The position numbers and the translations under genes are program-made. This document shows positions 1 to 13,719 of a stretch of 36,623 nt of DNA, one piece after another; the first letter of the stretch is position 1; every line of letters starts with the position of its first letter. The stretch is from assembly GCA_017883405.1 (NCBI GenBank), contig JADGNO010000250.1:1-36623 (forward strand). The letters are read 5' to 3'. Below the pieces are notes generated by a model. It did no database searches. It saw only the letters and a program-made list of their open reading frames with translations, and was not told the origin of the DNA. This DNA is from Occallatibacter sp. GTDB taxonomy: Bacteria > Acidobacteriota > Terriglobia > Terriglobales > Acidobacteriaceae.

Positions 1-108
1 AAAGAAGGCATGAGCTTCCTTCGCGAGTCAGCCCTCGACCGTGTCCGTCGAGGCCTTACAACGCTCAAAGAGATCAACAAGGTAACCTTTATTGAGGCAT
101 CCCGCTAG
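1..108 (+). CDS. pilB: Type IV pilus assembly ATPase PilB/GspE family, C-terminal end (5' truncated)
   Basis: Frame 1 is open from the first base to a TAG at 106-108 and encodes the last 35 residues of a larger protein. The text GMSFLRESALDRV, then RRGLTTLKEINKVT, matches the C-terminal helix of PilB/GspE hexameric secretion ATPases, where 'ALxKVxxGxTTLEEVxRVT' is typical. The stop shares its last G with the GTG start of the next gene, so the two are translationally coupled. PilB rather than GspE is inferred from the pilM-pilN-pilO genes that follow. No Walker motifs are visible because the gene enters from outside the window. Confidence 0.75.
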   Translation, partial: KEGMSFLRESALDRVRRGLTTLKEINKVTFIEASR

Positions 109-1025
109 TGAAATTGCTCCTGAGCAAGACAAAAATCGGCGCGCAATCCGGCGGTCGGCCACCTGCGGCAATCGAGTTGTCGGCTGAAGGGGTTCTGGGT
201 GCATCATTGGACGCATCCAGCAGCGAGCCCGTCTTCGCCTTTGCTCCCCTGCCCCACGGTGCACTTATTCCCGGCATCGCCGAGTCAAACATCCGTTCCG
301 CCGATGTGGTTTCAGCAGCCATTCGCTCCGCGCTTGGCGGAATGACTCTGCGTTCTCGCGCTGTGACCGTAGTGCTGCCTGATCCGTCCGTTCGCGTTTT
401 CATGCTCGACTTTGATTCTCTTCCCAGCCGCCCCGCTGAGATTCTTCCTGTGCTGCGACTGCGCATGCGCAAGATGGTTCCCTTTGATGTGGAGCACGCC
501 GGGATCAGTTACCAGGTTCTCTCGCAAAGCGCTGCCGCCGTAAGATTGCTCACTGCGATTTTGCCCGGCCCAGTGCTTGCTGAGTACGAAAGCGCGGTGC
601 ACGCAGCAGGATATGAGCCAGGCGCCGTGCTGCCCTCCAGCCTTGCTGCGCTTGAGGTGGTTGACTCCATGGAAGCTGTGCTGATGGCGAACCTGAGCCC
701 TCTGGCGCTCACCACCTCCATCGCCAACGGTAGCGACCTGCTGCTTCATCGCACGCTCGATTTGCCTGACGATCCTCATGAGCGGCTTGCGGAAATCCAG
801 CGCGGCATTGCGGTGGCCGCAGCCTATTACGAAGACACGCTTCGTGCACCGGCGCGGCAAATTCACTACGCAGGCTTTTATAACAGTCGTGATTTTGAAA
901 AGTGGATCAGTGGTATGGATTTGAATGTGGTCGATCTTGTTCCGCGGCCAGACACTGGAGCCATCACCTCGCTTGGTCAAGCAAGCATTGCAGGCGCTGC
1001 CGGCGCCCTGGCGGGGGCGAAATAA
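108..1025 (+). CDS. pilM: PilM-like actin-fold protein of the pilus inner-membrane platform
   Basis: The product has 305 residues, starts at GTG and overlaps the upstream stop by one base. PilM proteins are cytoplasmic actin/FtsA-fold ATPases that bind the N-terminal tail of PilN and link the motor to the PilNOP complex. The call rests on position directly before PilN- and PilO-like genes and on an overall fit to divergent PilM (two-lobed protein; middle text VLPDPSVRVFMLDFDSLP, then LRMRKMVPF). The usual N-terminal 'DIGxxxIK' nucleotide loop is replaced by AIELSAEGV, so nucleotide binding may be weak or lost. There is no signal peptide or membrane segment. I am confident of operon membership and moderately confident of the name. 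Confidence 0.8.
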   Translation: MKLLLSKTKIGAQSGGRPPAAIELSAEGVLGASLDASSSEPVFAFAPLPHGALIPGIAESNIRSADVVSAAIRSALGGMTLRSRAVTVVLPDPSVRVFMLDFDSLPSRPAEILPVLRLRMRKMVPFDVEHAGISYQVLSQSAAAVRLLTAILPGPVLAEYESAVHAAGYEPGAVLPSSLAALEVVDSMEAVLMANLSPLALTTSIANGSDLLLHRTLDLPDDPHERLAEIQRGIAVAAAYYEDTLRAPARQIHYAGFYNSRDFEKWISGMDLNVVDLVPRPDTGAITSLGQASIAGAAGALAGAK

Positions 1026-1028
1026 GCC

Positions 1029-1757
1029 ATGCGAATTGCAATCAATCTTGCAACGCGCCCCTTTGCCGATCTTGGACCGGCAATCAAACGGCTGCGTATC
1101 AGCATGGGCATTCTTGCGCTAGTGGCCCTCGCTCTGGGGCTCGGCCTGCACGCTGTTCACAATCGCGCCGAACAAGCGCGCCAGCGCGAGCGTGCCCTGG
1201 ACGCCCAGATTGCGAGCGTAACGCAGGAGCGGCAAAATTATCAGAACCTGATGGATCGGCCCGACAATGCGCAGCTGCTCAAGCAGGCAGACGCACTGAA
1301 CCGGCTCTTTGACGAAAAGGCATTCTCGTGGACGCTGGCCATGGAGAACCTCGAAACGGTTCTGCCGCGTGGTGTGCAGGTTTCTACACTCGAGCCTGTT
1401 CGCGCCAAAGACGGCCACATTACGCTTCACCTTCGCGTCGTGGGTCCTCGCGATCGCTCTGTGGAGCTGGTACGCAATCTCGAGCATTCGCGACGATTTT
1501 TGCAACCTCGCATCATTGGTGAAAACTCCGAAAGCACCAATCTGCCTAATCAGCGAATGGAGCCGGTAAGCGAGTCAAATCGGTTCACGTTCGACTTGCT
1601 GGCCGAATACAATCCGCCCACGCAGGAAGAAGCCAGAGCCGCATCGAAGATGGCTAACAACCAGCACGAATCCGCCGAATCCGCAAGCGCAACGCCTTCT
1701 TCAAGTGCTACTCGCCGGCTAGTCTCCTCCGGCCCCGGAACAGGAGGCCCGCGATGA
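1029..1757 (+). CDS. pilN: PilN-like pilus assembly protein
   Basis: The product has 242 residues. It has the PilN signature: a short cytoplasmic N-terminus reading MRIAINLATRPFAD (the PilN tail that binds PilM is usually 'xINLLPxR'), one membrane helix at about residues 23-45, then a periplasmic coiled coil (about 46-90) and a ferredoxin-like domain to about residue 190. The last 35 residues are a Ser/Ala-rich tail unlike most PilN proteins. It lies 3 bases after pilM and overlaps pilO by 4 bases (ATGA). By family knowledge it forms a heterodimer with PilO that connects the cytoplasmic ring to the secretin side. Confidence 0.82.
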   Translation: MRIAINLATRPFADLGPAIKRLRISMGILALVALALGLGLHAVHNRAEQARQRERALDAQIASVTQERQNYQNLMDRPDNAQLLKQADALNRLFDEKAFSWTLAMENLETVLPRGVQVSTLEPVRAKDGHITLHLRVVGPRDRSVELVRNLEHSRRFLQPRIIGENSESTNLPNQRMEPVSESNRFTFDLLAEYNPPTQEEARAASKMANNQHESAESASATPSSSATRRLVSSGPGTGGPR

Positions 1758-2395
1758 GCAATGGAACAGCCTCCCCTGTATGGAACGAACGGCTTAAGTC
1801 GCCGCTTACATGGCACTACGTTGCGTTTGCCGCGCTGTTGCTTCTGGTTGTTGGACTTGGTGTGCGCCTCGCACTCGACTGGAGAGCAATCAGTGTTGAC
1901 GCCGACACGGCCATGGCCGCCAAGCAGATTCAGCTCAAGGCCATGGACCTGCAAACCGCTCCCCTGCGCGGCCTTGATAAGCGCGTTGAAGAATCGCGTG
2001 CACAGATGCAGTCGTTTTACAGCAAGCGCATTCCGCCCAACTACTCGACTATCTCCGGCCGCATCGGCGAGCTTGAAGTTGCTTCAGGCGTGCGCATTAC
2101 CCGGCTGCAGTACGCGCAAGGAATCTCTGGTCCTGATCTGACCGAGATCGCAATCGAATCCACCATCAGCGGCGAGTACCCACAGGTCATGCGCTTCATC
2201 AACAGCCTGGAGCGCGATCAGAGCTTCTTCCTCATCCGCGCCATGGCCCTCGCCGGCCAACAGGGCGGACAGGTGAATCTGCGGCTCAGCTTGTCGACGT
2301 GGATGCGCCGCGCCGACGCTGCCGCCAGTGGATTGCCATCGATACAGCAGACGGCCGAGCAGGCTGCTCCTTCCGGCGGAAGAGGGGGTGAATAG
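1754..2395 (+). CDS. pilO: PilO-like pilus assembly protein
   Basis: The product has 213 residues. The start overlaps the end of pilN in an ATGA junction and is preceded by a clear AGGAGG, which supports it. It has one membrane helix at about residues 20-40, a predicted coiled coil at about 50-95, then a small alpha/beta periplasmic domain (about 95-190, with text SGEYPQVMRFINSLERDQSF). This is the standard PilO/GspM-like architecture, and the 'sGxYxxvxxFinxLE' stretch is the most recognisable PilO element. The C-terminus is Gly/Ser-rich. It should pair with PilN in the inner-membrane alignment complex. Confidence 0.82.
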   Translation: MSNGTASPVWNERLKSPLTWHYVAFAALLLLVVGLGVRLALDWRAISVDADTAMAAKQIQLKAMDLQTAPLRGLDKRVEESRAQMQSFYSKRIPPNYSTISGRIGELEVASGVRITRLQYAQGISGPDLTEIAIESTISGEYPQVMRFINSLERDQSFFLIRAMALAGQQGGQVNLRLSLSTWMRRADAAASGLPSIQQTAEQAAPSGGRGGE

Positions 2396-2397
2396 CC

Positions 2398-3012
2398 ATG
2401 GCCATTCCTCTCGGAACTGAGAACAAGCGCCAGGTTGTCCTGGTTGTTGTGCTGTTCGCGTTCATCATCGTCTACGGCGGCGTCCAGGCGTACAAAATGT
2501 TATTCGCGCCTTCCACGCCAATTCGCCCGGTTGCTACTCCGGTATCCACTAGTCGTTCCGTGGCCACTTCTTCTGGTTCGTCTGCGGAAGGTCCTGAGGC
2601 ACAGAAGCTATCCAATGCAGGCATCGATCCGGCGCTGCACATGGAAAAGCTTGAGCAGAGCGGAAACGTCCGTTATGCAGGAACAGGCCGCAACATTTTC
2701 TCTGCCGAATCGGTGCCGGTAGCGATTGAAAAGCCGCTCAAGAGCGCTCGCATGACTGGGCCACAGCCGTCGGTGAACGTGCCTCCGCAGCCTCCGCGTC
2801 CTCCGTCCATCGACCTGAAATATTTCGGCTATTCGCAAGGGCCCGACAAATCGCTGCAGGCCTTCTTTACGCACGGCGAAGACATCTTTCTGGCGAAGAC
2901 CGGCGAAATTGTGAACCACCGCTACCGCGTCGGAAACATCAATCCCAATAACGTGCAGATTACCGATCTGGCGTACAACAACACGCAGACCATTCCGCTG
3001 ACTGCGTTCTGA
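2398..3012 (+). CDS. PilP-like periplasmic pilus/secretion protein
   Basis: The product has 204 residues and lies 2 bases after pilO. It has an N-terminal membrane helix at about residues 12-32, a long low-complexity Pro/Ser linker (about 38-130), and a compact C-terminal beta domain (about 138-204) that starts at LKYFGYS and contains GEDIFLAKTGEIVNHRYRVG. Such an all-beta domain with a 'lxxGexvfxvxxGdxi..xyxVxxI' pattern resembles the GspC/PilP homology region that contacts the secretin. It lacks the lipobox that many PilP proteins have, and a membrane anchor replaces it. The operon position after pilO agrees with PilP, but sequence similarity to canonical PilP looks weak, so no symbol is given. 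Confidence 0.65.
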   Translation: MAIPLGTENKRQVVLVVVLFAFIIVYGGVQAYKMLFAPSTPIRPVATPVSTSRSVATSSGSSAEGPEAQKLSNAGIDPALHMEKLEQSGNVRYAGTGRNIFSAESVPVAIEKPLKSARMTGPQPSVNVPPQPPRPPSIDLKYFGYSQGPDKSLQAFFTHGEDIFLAKTGEIVNHRYRVGNINPNNVQITDLAYNNTQTIPLTAF

Positions 3013-3019
3013 GAAGTTG

Positions 3020-3997
3020 ATGAAGCACACAATTCCAGCCCGCCGCGAACGCCGCTCTGAAGAGGGCTATCTCCTCGTCTGGGTCATGTTCATGCTGGCT
3101 GTATTCACCATCTGGCTATCGGTGGCCGTACCCCGGGCCGCCAAAGAGATTCAGCGTGATCGCGACGTTGAAACCATGCGTCGCGGCAAGCAGTACACGC
3201 GCGCTATACAGCTTTATTACCGCAAGTTCCATGCCTATCCACCCAACGCCAACGCACTGGTCAACACCAACGAGATCCGTTTTCTGCGCAAGAAGTACAT
3301 CGATCCCGTTACCCGCAAAGATGATTGGAAGCCAATTCGCTTTGGCGAGGCAAAAACGCAGTCGGCGGGCTTCTTCGGCCAACCGATCGCCGGCGCGAGT
3401 TCTGCAGGAGGCTCGGTCTTGGCAGGCGTGGGCCCCAGCGGTAGTGGAGGCCTCGGCGGCTCGTCTGCGACCGGTTCTACAACCGGCTCTTCTTTGGGCG
3501 GCTCCACATTTGGCGGCAGCTCTATCTTCGGTTCGGGTAATACACCGGGCAGCAATGGCTCGGCGGGAACGACAACAGCCAACGGCTCGGCAGGAGCCAG
3601 CGGCGCAGCTGGAGCAAGCGGAACAACAGGGACAAGCAGCGCCAATGGGTCAAGCGATAGTTCCTCCGCATTCGGTTCGTCTTCAGGACAGACATTCGGA
3701 GGCGCCGGCATTATCGGCTTCTCACCTGCAAGCACCCAAACCTCGATCCTGATCCTGAAAAAGAAGCAACACTACAACGAGTGGGAGTTTGTCTACGACT
3801 TGCTGAACGACATGCAAACTCAGGCTGGCGGTAACATGGGCCAACCGGCCAGCAGTACGACGACGCCAGTGGGCAGTTCGAGCTTCGGCGGCAGTTCAGG
3901 CACTGGATCTAGCACAGGTAGCAGCTTTGGTTCTGGGTTCGGTTCCACCCCCAGCCCGGCTCCCGGCTCGGGCGCCACACCGCAGCCTCAGCAATAA
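3020..3997 (+). CDS. Pseudopilin-like secretion protein with large Gly/Ser-rich insertions
   Basis: The product has 325 residues from ATG at 3020; a TTG one codon upstream (3017) is the alternative start. The N-terminus has a basic leader ending RRSEEG, then a hydrophobic helix beginning YLLVWVMFMLAV, which is the layout of a type IV (pseudo)pilin cut after Gly. Residues about 50-115 (TRAIQLYYRKFHAYPP ... KKYIDPVTRKDDW) match the GspG-type major pseudopilin core. The conserved Glu at +5 of the mature protein is absent (Trp instead). From about residue 125 the protein is dominated by Gly/Ser/Thr low complexity, interrupted by an ordered segment ILILKKKQHYNEWEFVYD at about 248-265. It is the last gene of the operon, before the terminator at 4018. 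Confidence 0.75.
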   Translation: MKHTIPARRERRSEEGYLLVWVMFMLAVFTIWLSVAVPRAAKEIQRDRDVETMRRGKQYTRAIQLYYRKFHAYPPNANALVNTNEIRFLRKKYIDPVTRKDDWKPIRFGEAKTQSAGFFGQPIAGASSAGGSVLAGVGPSGSGGLGGSSATGSTTGSSLGGSTFGGSSIFGSGNTPGSNGSAGTTTANGSAGASGAAGASGTTGTSSANGSSDSSSAFGSSSGQTFGGAGIIGFSPASTQTSILILKKKQHYNEWEFVYDLLNDMQTQAGGNMGQPASSTTTPVGSSSFGGSSGTGSSTGSSFGSGFGSTPSPAPGSGATPQPQQ

Positions 3998-4081: not shown

Positions 4082-4450
4082 TTAAACGCTGAAGGAGGAG
4101 CCGCAACCGCAAGTGGATTTCACCTGTGGGTTCTCGAACTTGAACCCGGCAGCTTCCAGTGTTTCAACGTAATCGACCGTGCATCCATTCAGGTACATCA
4201 GCGAAGTCGCATCAACAAACACTTTTAAATCATCAAAACTGAACACTTTATCCATCATTCCGCTCTGGTTTTCAAAGGCCATCGAGTATTGGAAGCCTGA
4301 GCAGCCCCCGCCCACAACTCCAATGCGCAAGCCTGCCGGAATTGGATCCTGGGTGGCCATGATCTCGCGAACTTTCGCGATGGCTGACGGGGTCAGAATT
4401 AGAGGAGCCTTCTTTTCAGTTTCCAGTGGTGCCGCGGTTACGGTGGACAT
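4082..4450 (-). CDS. A-type iron-sulfur cluster carrier (HesB/IscA/ErpA family)
   Basis: The product has 122 residues, normal for the family once a 17-residue N-terminal extension is allowed for. The three cluster-binding cysteines are present: Cys50 in GGGCSGFQY, and Cys114 and Cys116 in the C-terminal TCGCGSSF. These proteins receive Fe-S clusters from a scaffold and deliver them to apo-enzymes in the cytoplasm. The start is supported by GGGAG seven bases upstream of ATG. The gene stands alone: no iscS, iscU or suf genes adjoin it, so it is more likely an ErpA-like carrier than part of an isc operon, but the sequence alone does not settle the subtype. Confidence 0.93.
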   Translation of the reverse strand: MSTVTAAPLETEKKAPLILTPSAIAKVREIMATQDPIPAGLRIGVVGGGCSGFQYSMAFENQSGMMDKVFSFDDLKVFVDATSLMYLNGCTVDYVETLEAAGFKFENPQVKSTCGCGSSFSV

Positions 4451-4793
4451 GTGCTCTCCCGGGGATGAATTCGTAATTCTACTTTACCGTTCATTGGGCG
4501 CGGATACAAGCCAATTCACCCAGCCTGATCCATTGCCTGCCACTTGATTTGATGCGATTGGCCCCTTAAGGGTCGCAGAATTAACCCAACCAGTTAACAC
4601 GCTAAGCCTATGCATTTGTGACTTCTAATCGACGCCTGGAGCCTTTCTTTCGGGTCACCAAAAAAATAAAACGATACAGCAGCACCTTTTCGGAGCTATT
4701 ATGTTGAACCGAAAGGCCCCTCTACCCACGAGGCCGCGCTTCGAGTCTACGGACTCGCCGGTTCTGGGACCCAGCAATACAGTGGAGGTGGAT
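4451..4793. other. Intergenic region between divergent genes
   Basis: The 343 bases between the Fe-S carrier gene and the first small membrane-protein gene contain no convincing coding frame. The left part should hold the carrier promoter. A TGTGA half-site is present at 4617-4621 but has no matching TCACA. An A-rich tract runs from 4660 to 4670. The right part (from about 4697) holds the promoter and leader that resemble those of the second paralog and are listed separately. Confidence 0.6.
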
Positions 4794-4794
4794 T
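4697..4794 (+). promoter_or_regulatory. Promoter and 5' leader shared with the paralogous gene at 5182-5457
   Basis: A TATTAT at 4697-4702 could be a -10 box, placing a start near 4709. The presumed leader opens with AACCGAAAGGCCCCTCTAC (15 bases at 4711-4725 are repeated exactly, inverted, at 5529-5543) and later has CGCCGG and CTGGGACC, then AGGTGG before the ATG at 4795. The same elements in the same order precede the second paralog. GAAA flanked by CC and GG could form a small tetraloop hairpin. Whether this is a regulatory RNA or just shared ancestry is open. Confidence 0.5.
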
Positions 4795-5076
4795 ATGACG
4801 TTTGTACCGATCATGTGGACGGCGTGGGGCGTGATTGTCGCTGCGATGCTGTTACTGCACGTCTACCGTTCGAGCCTGGAGAAGAATGAGGACGACCAGA
4901 TCTTCCTCGACGACTCCTTCGAACATGAAAGGACCGCGCAGTTAATGATCGTGGCAAAAGTTCACAAAATAGAGCCTGCGCTGCGCGTATTGAAGTGGAT
5001 GGCGGTGGCCATGACTGTCGTTGTTGTCATTTACTACATTCGCGACATCATGGTGCAGCTCAATATCATCCGATAA
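4795..5076 (+). CDS. Small two-helix membrane protein, paralog 1
   Basis: The product has 93 residues and a good ribosome site (GGAGG, 6 bases before ATG). I do not recognise the family. It starts MTFVPIMWTAWGVIV, with a membrane helix at about residues 6-24, a charged middle region with ED.QIFLDDSFEHERTAQ and the block IVAKVHKIEP (about 52-61), and a second helix at about 67-86. The protein encoded on the other strand at 5182-5457 aligns without gaps over the first 61 residues with 28 identities by eye. The charged middle is the best conserved part and probably faces the cytoplasm, where it may bind a partner. Function unknown. Confidence 0.8.
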   Translation: MTFVPIMWTAWGVIVAAMLLLHVYRSSLEKNEDDQIFLDDSFEHERTAQLMIVAKVHKIEPALRVLKWMAVAMTVVVVIYYIRDIMVQLNIIR

Positions 5077-5121
5077 AAACACTTCGGAAAGCCGCAAGAT
5101 TGGTTGAAAAAAGTCTATAGT

Positions 5122-5165
5122 CTTCCTGGCCCCGGCGATCTAATCAACCGCCGGGAGTCAGGAAG
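5122..5165. terminator. Hairpin between the convergent paralogs, probable two-way terminator
   Basis: CTTCCTG (5122-5128) pairs with CAGGAAG (5159-5165), and inside it CCCGGCG (5131-5137) pairs with CGCCGGG (5149-5155), leaving an 11-base loop. On the - strand a run of six T follows at a short distance; on the + strand the tail is only TTGTTG. The position between two stops fits a terminator serving mainly the - strand gene. Confidence 0.6.
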
Positions 5166-5181
5166 TTGTTGCTCATATAAA

Positions 5182-5457
5182 TTACAGCCTGAACTGCCTG
5201 TAGATATCGAACAGATAATAGCCAACGACAAACACCGTCGCAACTCCCACCAGAGCCAGAGTCGCCTTGCGCAACGGCTCAATTTTATTAACCTTGGCCA
5301 CAATTGCTGCCTGTGCCGATTTTTCCTGCTCCATTGCTTCGCCAAGAAATACCTGGCTATCTTCATCGCGAGTCAACTGTCCCGTAAATATCTTGACGAC
5401 GATAAATAGCAGAACAAATGCACCCCAAACGGACCACATCACCGGGACGAATCCCAT
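5182..5457 (-). CDS. Small two-helix membrane protein, paralog 2
   Basis: The product has 91 residues from ATG at 5457. A GTG at 5466 is an upstream alternative, but GAGGTGA sits 5 bases before the ATG, and the ATG start aligns exactly with paralog 1 (MGFVPVMW against MTFVPIMW). It has membrane helices at about residues 6-25 and 66-84 and a charged middle with RDEDSQVFLGEAMEQEKSAQ and IVAKVNKIEP. The last 30 residues diverge from paralog 1 except for YY.xDI. It is convergent with paralog 1 and carries a similar leader. A CRP-type box lies upstream at 5580-5595. Function unknown. Confidence 0.8.
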   Translation of the reverse strand: MGFVPVMWSVWGAFVLLFIVVKIFTGQLTRDEDSQVFLGEAMEQEKSAQAAIVAKVNKIEPLRKATLALVGVATVFVVGYYLFDIYRQFRL

Positions 5458-5557
5458 CGCTCTCACCTCGTATGTAATGTTCCGGTCCCAGATGCCGGCG
5501 GTCGCCTAAGAATTGCTGCGGCTACCAAGTAGAGGGGCCTTTCGGGTTCCCATCTTA
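5458..5557 (-). promoter_or_regulatory. Promoter and 5' leader of paralog 2
   Basis: Read on the - strand, TAAGAT (5557-5552) is a possible -10 box. It is followed by AACCCGAAAGGCCCCTCTAC, then CGCCGG, TCTGGGACC and GAGGTGA before ATG. Apart from one extra C in the first element, these match the leader at 4697-4794 in order and spacing. The start of transcription is inferred near 5545. Confidence 0.45.
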
Positions 5558-5579
5558 GAAGCCCGGCGGAACAAGCGGT

Positions 5580-5595
5580 CGTGACACGAGTCACA
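5580..5595. promoter_or_regulatory. CRP-family operator, near-consensus
   Basis: The sequence CGTGACACGAGTCACA matches the E. coli CRP consensus TGTGA-N6-TCACA at 9 of 10 specified bases (first T is C). Its centre (5587.5) is about 42 bases upstream of the start point inferred for paralog 2, which is the classic spacing for activation from a site overlapping -35. The window encodes a Crp-like protein with the matching recognition helix at 13003-13719. Confidence 0.5.
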
Positions 5596-13002: not shown

Positions 13003-13719
13003 TTAATTGCCCGCATACGATTCCAATGCTGTTTTGCTGGGAATCGTTAAAGTCGAACCGTGGAAAGCAACCAGGTGGCGGCTCTTGAAGATGCTGAGCG
13101 TGCGAGTAACGGTTTCACGCGAGGCGCCGATGAATTCGCCAATCTCGCCGTGCGTAAGCGGAAAGCGGAAGTGCGTGCCGTCCTCGGTGGTTTTACCATT
13201 CTGGCTCCACTCAAGGAGCAGGCGGGCGAGCTTCTCAGGCGCCGAATTTGACAACCCGACCGTGCGCAGCTGCTCGCAGGCCAATGTGTAGTCGCGGGTC
13301 AGTTCCTCGGTCACTGTTTGGTAGACCTCGGGATGCCGCATCAGGAAGTTGGTGAAATCGCGGCGGCTGATCGGCGCGAGCTTGGCCGGATACAGTATCT
13401 CCGCGGTAATTTCTGAAGCTTTGCCGGAGAGCGCCGATGCCAGCCCGAGGATCTCGCCTTTTCTTGCAATGCGCAGAATCAGCCGACGGCCGTCGCTCGA
13501 GTTCATTGAAAGTTTTACTTCACCATCAAGGACGATGTAGATGCTGGATGCGGTGTCCTTCTCAGAAAAAACAATCTTGCCTGCCGGATAATTTACTGCC
13601 GTTGCCATGGCGCTCAAGTCCTTCAGCGCTTCAGGCGTCAACTTGTTAAAAAACTCTCCAGACAACCGCGACTGGTTACGATTGCCAGCGACTTCACTCT
13701 GCATCGTCATCGTTCCCAT
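13003..13719 (-). CDS. Crp/Fnr family transcriptional regulator
   Basis: The product has 238 residues from ATG at 13719. A GTG one codon earlier overlaps the upstream stop as GTGA, but GAGGAG fits the ATG spacing better. It has a cyclic-nucleotide-binding-type beta-roll (about 25-130), a dimer helix (about 135-160) and a Crp-type HTH (about 180-225) with the recognition helix GASRETVTRTLSIF. That keeps the Arg, Glu and Arg that read TGTGA in E. coli CRP. The phosphate-binding cassette reads GEILGLASALSGKASE and lacks the Arg-Ser/Thr pair that holds cAMP, and there are no Fnr cysteines, so its signal is neither obvious cAMP nor an Fe-S cluster. It is coupled to the STAS gene and probably expressed from a sigma-54 promoter. 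Confidence 0.92.
   Translation of the reverse strand: MGTMTMQSEVAGNRNQSRLSGEFFNKLTPEALKDLSAMATAVNYPAGKIVFSEKDTASSIYIVLDGEVKLSMNSSDGRRLILRIARKGEILGLASALSGKASEITAEILYPAKLAPISRRDFTNFLMRHPEVYQTVTEELTRDYTLACEQLRTVGLSNSAPEKLARLLLEWSQNGKTTEDGTHFRFPLTHGEIGEFIGASRETVTRTLSIFKSRHLVAFHGSTLTIPSKTALESYAGN

Follow-up and report, generated by a model that had tools for sequence, protein, structure and literature searches.

The window, as we call the whole analysed stretch of 36,623 nucleotides from Occallatibacter sp. (Acidobacteriota), encodes two small membrane proteins of 93 and 91 residues. Their genes, A on the forward strand and B on the reverse strand, converge, as an earlier note had described, and each is preceded by a non-coding leader. 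Two covariance models describe these leaders: R2, the genus leader model; and R3, a wider model of the core common to other genera. Counting from the first base of a TATNAT box, the transcript would start about 12 nt downstream, so that the leader RNA would form the 5' end of the mRNA. For gene A, the register of this box was taken from other copies, in which CRP-like sites precede the equivalent box by 29.5-30.5 nt. The features are as follows (coordinates, strand, description, basis):

4082..4450, minus: A-type Fe-S carrier (Fe-S_biosyn; ErpA/IscA-like), divergent neighbour; Pfam PF01521 and synteny
4697..4702, plus: inferred -10 box TATTAT of gene A, start expected at about 4709; sequence
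4703..4794, plus: leader of gene A, R2 match of 73.7 bits; covariance-model search
4708..4776, plus: core of the gene A leader common to other genera, R3 match of 54.3 bits
4715..4719, plus: proposed P1 5' strand GGCCC, proposed partner 4766-4771
4729..4736, plus: proposed P2 5' strand CGAGGCCG, proposed partner 4750-4757
4750..4757, plus: proposed P2 3' strand CGGACTCG
4766..4771, plus: proposed P1 3' strand GGGACC, with the A bulged or mismatched
4795..5076, plus: gene A, 93-aa small membrane protein; sequence and homolog comparison
5182..5457, minus: gene B, 91-aa small membrane protein (from ATG); sequence and homolog comparison
5460..5551, minus: leader of gene B, R2 match of 49.4 bits; covariance-model search
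5480..5546, minus: core of the gene B leader common to other genera, R3 match of 42.7 bits
5552..5557, minus: inferred -10 box TAAGAT of gene B, start expected at about 5545; sequence
5581..5595, minus: CRP-like palindrome TGTGA-N6-TCAC of gene B, centred about 30 nt upstream of the -10 box

The two proteins share 28 identities over the first 61 aligned residues (the earlier note's figure, reproduced by eye in alignment A6), and are 41% identical over 91 residues. Their leaders agree at 73% of 88 aligned positions, compared with 32% of third codon positions and 3 of 14 four-fold sites. The earlier note had pointed to an exact 15-mer shared by the leaders; the match is indeed exact, and its true length is 17 (4709-4725, inverted at 5529-5545). 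CGCCGG and then CTGGGACC follow it in both leaders, in the order originally described. Moreover, the inverted repeat reaches the -10 region, with 80% identity over 30 nt (4696-4725 and 5529-5558).

Neither window protein matches a Pfam or NCBIfam family above cut-off, and 63 members of the protein family drew only scattered weak matches from these collections (best 0.00075 and 0.00028, each in two members). A profile search of the PDB found no clear relative (best E 0.047). The predicted structure consists of two long helices, in a poor model (5-sequence alignment, pLDDT 68, pTM 0.40). Residues conserved in 90% or more of members (W11, Y24, E32, Q35, L38, Q49, and P61) fall mainly in an EEDQxFL block, rather than in IVAKVxKIEP as such, the block that the earlier note put forward as a possible docking site.

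The neighbourhood offers one suggestion about physiology. The divergent ErpA-like Fe-S carrier occurs within 2.5 kb upstream of 61 of 79 copies in the genus and 33 of 41 copies in other genera with enough flank; it accompanies none of eight copies from other families. This neighbourhood, taken alone, may hint at a role in iron-sulfur or redox physiology. Farther upstream in the window, at 108-3997 on the plus strand, is a same-strand run of genes that may be pilus or secretion genes, one of them with a sub-threshold match to type II secretion M. Several genes of this run recur at the same place in other loci of the genus.

Conservation and spread of the leader

Homologs of the protein were found by protein search in 44 of 60 relatives (the window's own genome counted), in 74 of 80 genomes of the genus, and in all 42 genus genomes with completeness of 90% or more and contamination of 5% or less. 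Reading 79 genus loci gave 101 homologous copies, among which R2 matches the leader at E <= 0.01 in 72, more than expected by chance; some of the other 29 are truncated upstream. When whole genomes were searched with R2 (under strict filters, used also for the R3 searches described below, at which weak matches are lost), 64 places were found in 60 of 79 genus genomes. Every one of the 64 directly precedes a same-strand protein match, with a gap of -4 to 19 nt, and the likeness of the window leaders is therefore not the leftover of one duplication. (One genome of the genus, G035, carries a B copy broken by a TAA after 46 residues, at position 1501 of the plus strand of its locus; its A copy encodes 93 residues.)

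The earlier note proposed that leaders kept alike while the proteins drifted mark a selected element, and named synonymous sites as the yardstick. By that yardstick the proposal holds: mean leader identity is 0.60 versus 0.38 at four-fold sites in sampled genus pairs, and the leader is the more alike in 854 of 931 pairs (these pairs are non-independent, and the leader alignment is model-fitted). Related leaders also occur in genera where protein identity is as low as about 28-40%.

The protein is present in 200 of 298 genomes of the order, representing 48 of 70 genera and nearly all from one family. From among the matches listed, 92 loci of other genera were fetched. By hand count, R3 matches at E <= 0.01 in 47 of 93 other-genus sources, of which 26 built R3 and six were found by it; among the 61 other-genus loci outside the training set and the R3 finds, 15 match at that threshold. 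Among 150 host-family genomes, R3 finds 31 places, spread over 30 genomes and 11 of 58 genera. In all 30 fetched R3 loci a member of the protein family starts 17-142 nt downstream; the 31st place is the leader of window gene B. Three of these genomes (G144, G170, and G185) lack a protein match at 1e-6, yet the RNA motif led to a family member in each. Of 200 genomes in a sample of the class, which overlaps the genomes searched earlier, 11 contain R3 matches, 12 places in total, and every one belongs to the host family.

The earlier note also considered that homologs elsewhere might lack the leader elements. Such homologs exist: the element is missing from 29 of the 101 copies in the genus, from roughly half of the loci in other genera, and from all 11 loci of other families, where R2 finds no leader match. 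The element is thus common, not universal. Where it occurs it is conserved, keeps its position and its register with the promoter, and, among the matches, is tied to one gene family. We are confident that the leader is a conserved, transcribed, cis-acting element.

Its form varies in detail. The related leaders of other genera in alignment A4 have the consensus ACGGCCCCUC.U.CCC.CGAGCCCG-loop-CGGACCCGCCCGGUAUC.GGGACCGG. The gene start is separated from the RNA core by about 136-142 nt in one genus group (g48; loci L232, L234, L240, and L246), and by about 17-57 nt elsewhere. Seven other-genus leaders (L195, L202, L204, L209, L218, L224, and L226) appear by eye to carry an extra short CCCU...AGGG-type hairpin directly before the Shine-Dalgarno sequence (SD). 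Two loci (L150 and L157) contain the gene in two tandem copies, and L157 has, ahead of the second copy, a further, weak RNA core (E 0.08).

A proposed hairpin fold

The leader RNA would fold into a single interrupted hairpin with three helices: P1 (GGCCC with GGGACC or GGAGCC); a short P1b (UACC with GGUA); and P2 (CGAGCCCG with CGGACCCG). RNAalifold with RIBOSUM scoring, applied to 46 motif sequences, predicts P1 and P2. Further evidence comes from several alignments. Members of A4 (structure-agnostic, 42 sequences) and A1 (40 sequences) were chosen by eye for a visible motif; A2, A3, and A7 were each fitted to a structure of their own, and are biased in its favour.

In A4, cells with pair-keeping changes on both sides number 16, compared with 8.9 +- 2.0 in shuffled alignments, and the covariation score is 0.130 versus 0.096; neither value is reached in 500 shuffles. 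The genus alignment A2, fitted to the fold, contains 101 both-side cells, distributed such that 18 of 19 pairs show both-side changes, compared with 47 +- 6 after shuffling and at most 50 in slid versions. The fitted A7 contains 12, compared with 4.5 +- 1.8. Tree-aware counts also exceed their null for P1 in the genus (5 vs 1.1 +- 1.0 with the MAFFT alignment and 7 vs 0.8 +- 0.9 with the fitted one; 0 of 300 reach either). For P2 across the family the fitted alignment gives 5 vs 1.2 +- 1.0 (6 of 1000 reach) and MAFFT 4 vs 1.6 +- 1.3 (89 of 1000 reach).

Other measures are silent or point elsewhere. The folding energies of 90 leaders do not fall below those of shuffles (mean z 0.02). The tree-aware total for the whole fold is not significant with MAFFT alignments, either in the genus (19 vs 14.5 +- 3.5) or in A4 (273 of 1000 reach), and across the family set neither P1 nor P1b exceeds its tree-aware null. 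When the 3' partners are slid by +1, both-side cells outnumber those of the fold itself (20 vs 16 in A4; 17 vs 12 in A7); with this slide paired cells drop to 40% in A4 and 45% in A7, from 75% and 88%. A homemade, R-scape-like test of individual pairs against a simulated null found no significant pair in either of two alignments. For the earlier note's suggestion of a structured RNA, the outcome is divided: diverged copies lend it modest support, and the per-pair covariation test does not.

One rival fold, S2 (CUCA/UGGG, ACCG/CGGU, and UCC/GGA; model R1), is favoured by single-sequence energies. In A1, where neither fold shows clear covariation, S2 also pairs more cells (82.9% vs 73.3%). We rank it second, because 24 of 34 held-out leaders score higher under R2 and 10 under R1 (Wilcoxon p 0.0007), and because its both-side changes are fewer: 47 cells in 15 pairs, compared with 101 in 19. 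S2 may be a second state of the same leader. On this comparative evidence the hairpin of P1, P1b, and P2 is probable, not proven.

Recurrent A.C-type juxtapositions interrupt the G-C-rich helices of this hairpin in A7. At the P2 site 27.84, A.C is present in 46 of 60 RNAs, the remainder comprising A-U (8), G-C (4), U.C (1), and a gap (1); a C.A site in P2 is kept in 41 of 60. Counted over four sites, 46 of 60 RNAs contain two or more such juxtapositions. In P1, a single A occupies one or the other of two neighbouring positions, and this holds for 46 of 60 RNAs. Such sites may contact a ligand, form wobble pairs, or simply be slack.

Possible roles of the leader

We lean towards the view that the two window leaders are copies of a structured, cis-acting 5'-leader RNA, shared by at least 11 genera of the family, whose target is the gene for the small membrane protein. 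Of the readings considered, an orphan, riboswitch-like cis-regulatory RNA is the most likely. As in riboswitches, a conserved domain lies in the 5' leader of a specific gene, at the R2 and R3 placements. The RNA would bind a signal, for which a small molecule or ion seems likelier than a protein, and binding would alter translation or stability of the mRNA. That the leader is a folded regulatory RNA of some kind is probable; that it senses a small molecule or ion is a tentative proposal, about which we are more doubtful than hopeful. Many leader loops can pair with their own SD; those of other leaders bind equally (p 0.82 and 0.74 for own versus foreign), and SD accessibility is the same as in shuffled leaders. 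Inspection by eye brought no terminator to notice.

Alternatively, the leader may be the binding site of a regulatory protein, an RNA-binding repressor or activator, with no ligand sensing. The conserved bases in a simple hairpin would suit a protein as well as an aptamer; however, none of the neighbours examined stood out as a candidate binder, and the encoded two-helix protein (in its weak model) is an unlikely autoregulator. We consider a protein site unlikely, yet the most credible of the rivals. Somewhat less likely still is a constitutive mRNA stabiliser or translation enhancer that senses nothing. The failure to demonstrate either SD sequestration or cognate anti-SD pairing fits such a passive element, but the leaders are no more stable than shuffles, and the retention of particular bases across genera (21 columns of A7 are conserved at 85% or more) exceeds what a purely stabilising stem would need.

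The conserved block may instead act as DNA, as an operator or a downstream part of the promoter. Its strong primary-sequence conservation adjoins the promoter, per-pair covariation is weak, and the +1 slide controls are as described; nevertheless, pair-keeping both-side changes exceed shuffles, loop length varies, and held-out leaders score better with the paired model than with the rival paired model. On this evidence a DNA element is improbable. Finally, the conserved stretch may be a translated leader peptide that begins at the ATG in TATGATG: 68 of 113 leaders have an ATG 3-32 nt ahead of the GGCC-type anchor, and 33 of 48 genus leaders share one frame. In leaders where this ATG is part of the -10 box, it stands upstream of the inferred start, and the fixed distance from box to block accounts for the common frame. 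Moreover, the ATG is missing from 45 of 113 leaders, leaders of other genera spread over three frames (10, 6, and 4), and 21 of 68 contain an in-frame stop. A leader peptide is accordingly disfavoured, and we give it hardly any credence.

One form of the regulatory-RNA reading starts from the A.C-type sites. Protonated A+.C wobble pairs form under acid conditions; in an acid cytoplasm they would complete the hairpin, and thereby set the level of the small membrane protein. We consider such a pH sensor very unlikely.

No Rfam 15 covariance model matches the window or 18 loci at the gathering cut-off, and permissive settings, applied to the window region, to 13 loci, and to one leader, returned only matches far below cut-off. 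By this comparison, the putative leader RNA is uncatalogued in Rfam 15. The literature searched, a single collection, contained no account of it that we recognised. The NAD+-I (nadA) riboswitch has an Rfam covariance model; it comprises two tandem domains, in which helices are parted by a C-rich 5' bulge, with the sequence ACANCCCC, and an internal loop. That model has no match above cut-off among the leaders and loci scanned with Rfam 15. The leaders resemble this riboswitch (PMC7297122) at most in that arrangement of helices, bulge, and loop; the window RNA has one domain instead of two, precedes a different gene, and by eye shows no evident ACANCCCC bulge in its consensus.

A further parallel is with the orphan riboswitch and cis-regulatory RNA candidates that comparative genomics yields (PMC2864571, PMC7266159): here too a conserved, probably structured RNA lies immediately upstream of one gene family. 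The window RNA differs in lacking an Rfam 15 match, and is confined, as sampled, to one orphan gene family and one Acidobacteriota family. Acido-1 and Acido-Lenti-1 likewise occur in Acidobacteria, and PMC2864571 lists them as probably not cis-regulatory; neither has an Rfam match to leaders of the window type. If the preferred reading is right, an uncatalogued cis-acting RNA is common to many genera of one Acidobacteria family, and its signal would provide a first handle on the role of an unannotated protein family.

Putative regulatory inputs are partitioned between paralogs

GTGA-N6-TCAC is present upstream of 51 of 99 genus copies; mononucleotide shuffles would predict 0.24. In 44 of 46 genus copies with an assigned -10 box, this CRP-like site is located 29.5 or 30.5 nt upstream of the box. 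The fixed spacing suggests both a site near -41.5 and the inferred transcript start. Class II CRP-dependent promoters contain TGTGA-N6-TCAC centred at about -41.5, and the predicted genus site, TGTGA-N6-TCAC at about -41.5 from the inferred start, resembles them. It differs in distribution: the site is common only in this genus, and is rare in others (7 of 93 copies).

The 22 two-copy loci of the genus (which include likely close relatives, L073 and L074) are all convergent pairs. The CRP-like site precedes 20 of the 22 B copies and none of the 22 A copies; the R2 leader precedes 19 of 22 A copies and 6 of 22 B copies. The putative regulatory inputs are thus partitioned between the paralogs: A copies mostly have the RNA, and B copies mostly the CRP-like site. 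Gene B of the window is one of the six B copies with both. Among 55 single copies with enough upstream sequence, 24 have both elements, 7 the site only, 22 the RNA only, and 2 neither. In the protein tree, 20 A and 20 B copies form separate groups (support 0.74 and 0.67), with single copies interspersed. In these pairs a duplicated gene has apparently divided its two regulatory inputs, RNA leader and CRP-like site, which makes them a natural experiment.

The window's genome encodes six HTH_Crp_2 matches over cut-off. A CRP-family helix-turn-helix domain is encoded in the window itself, at 13018-13236 on the minus strand.
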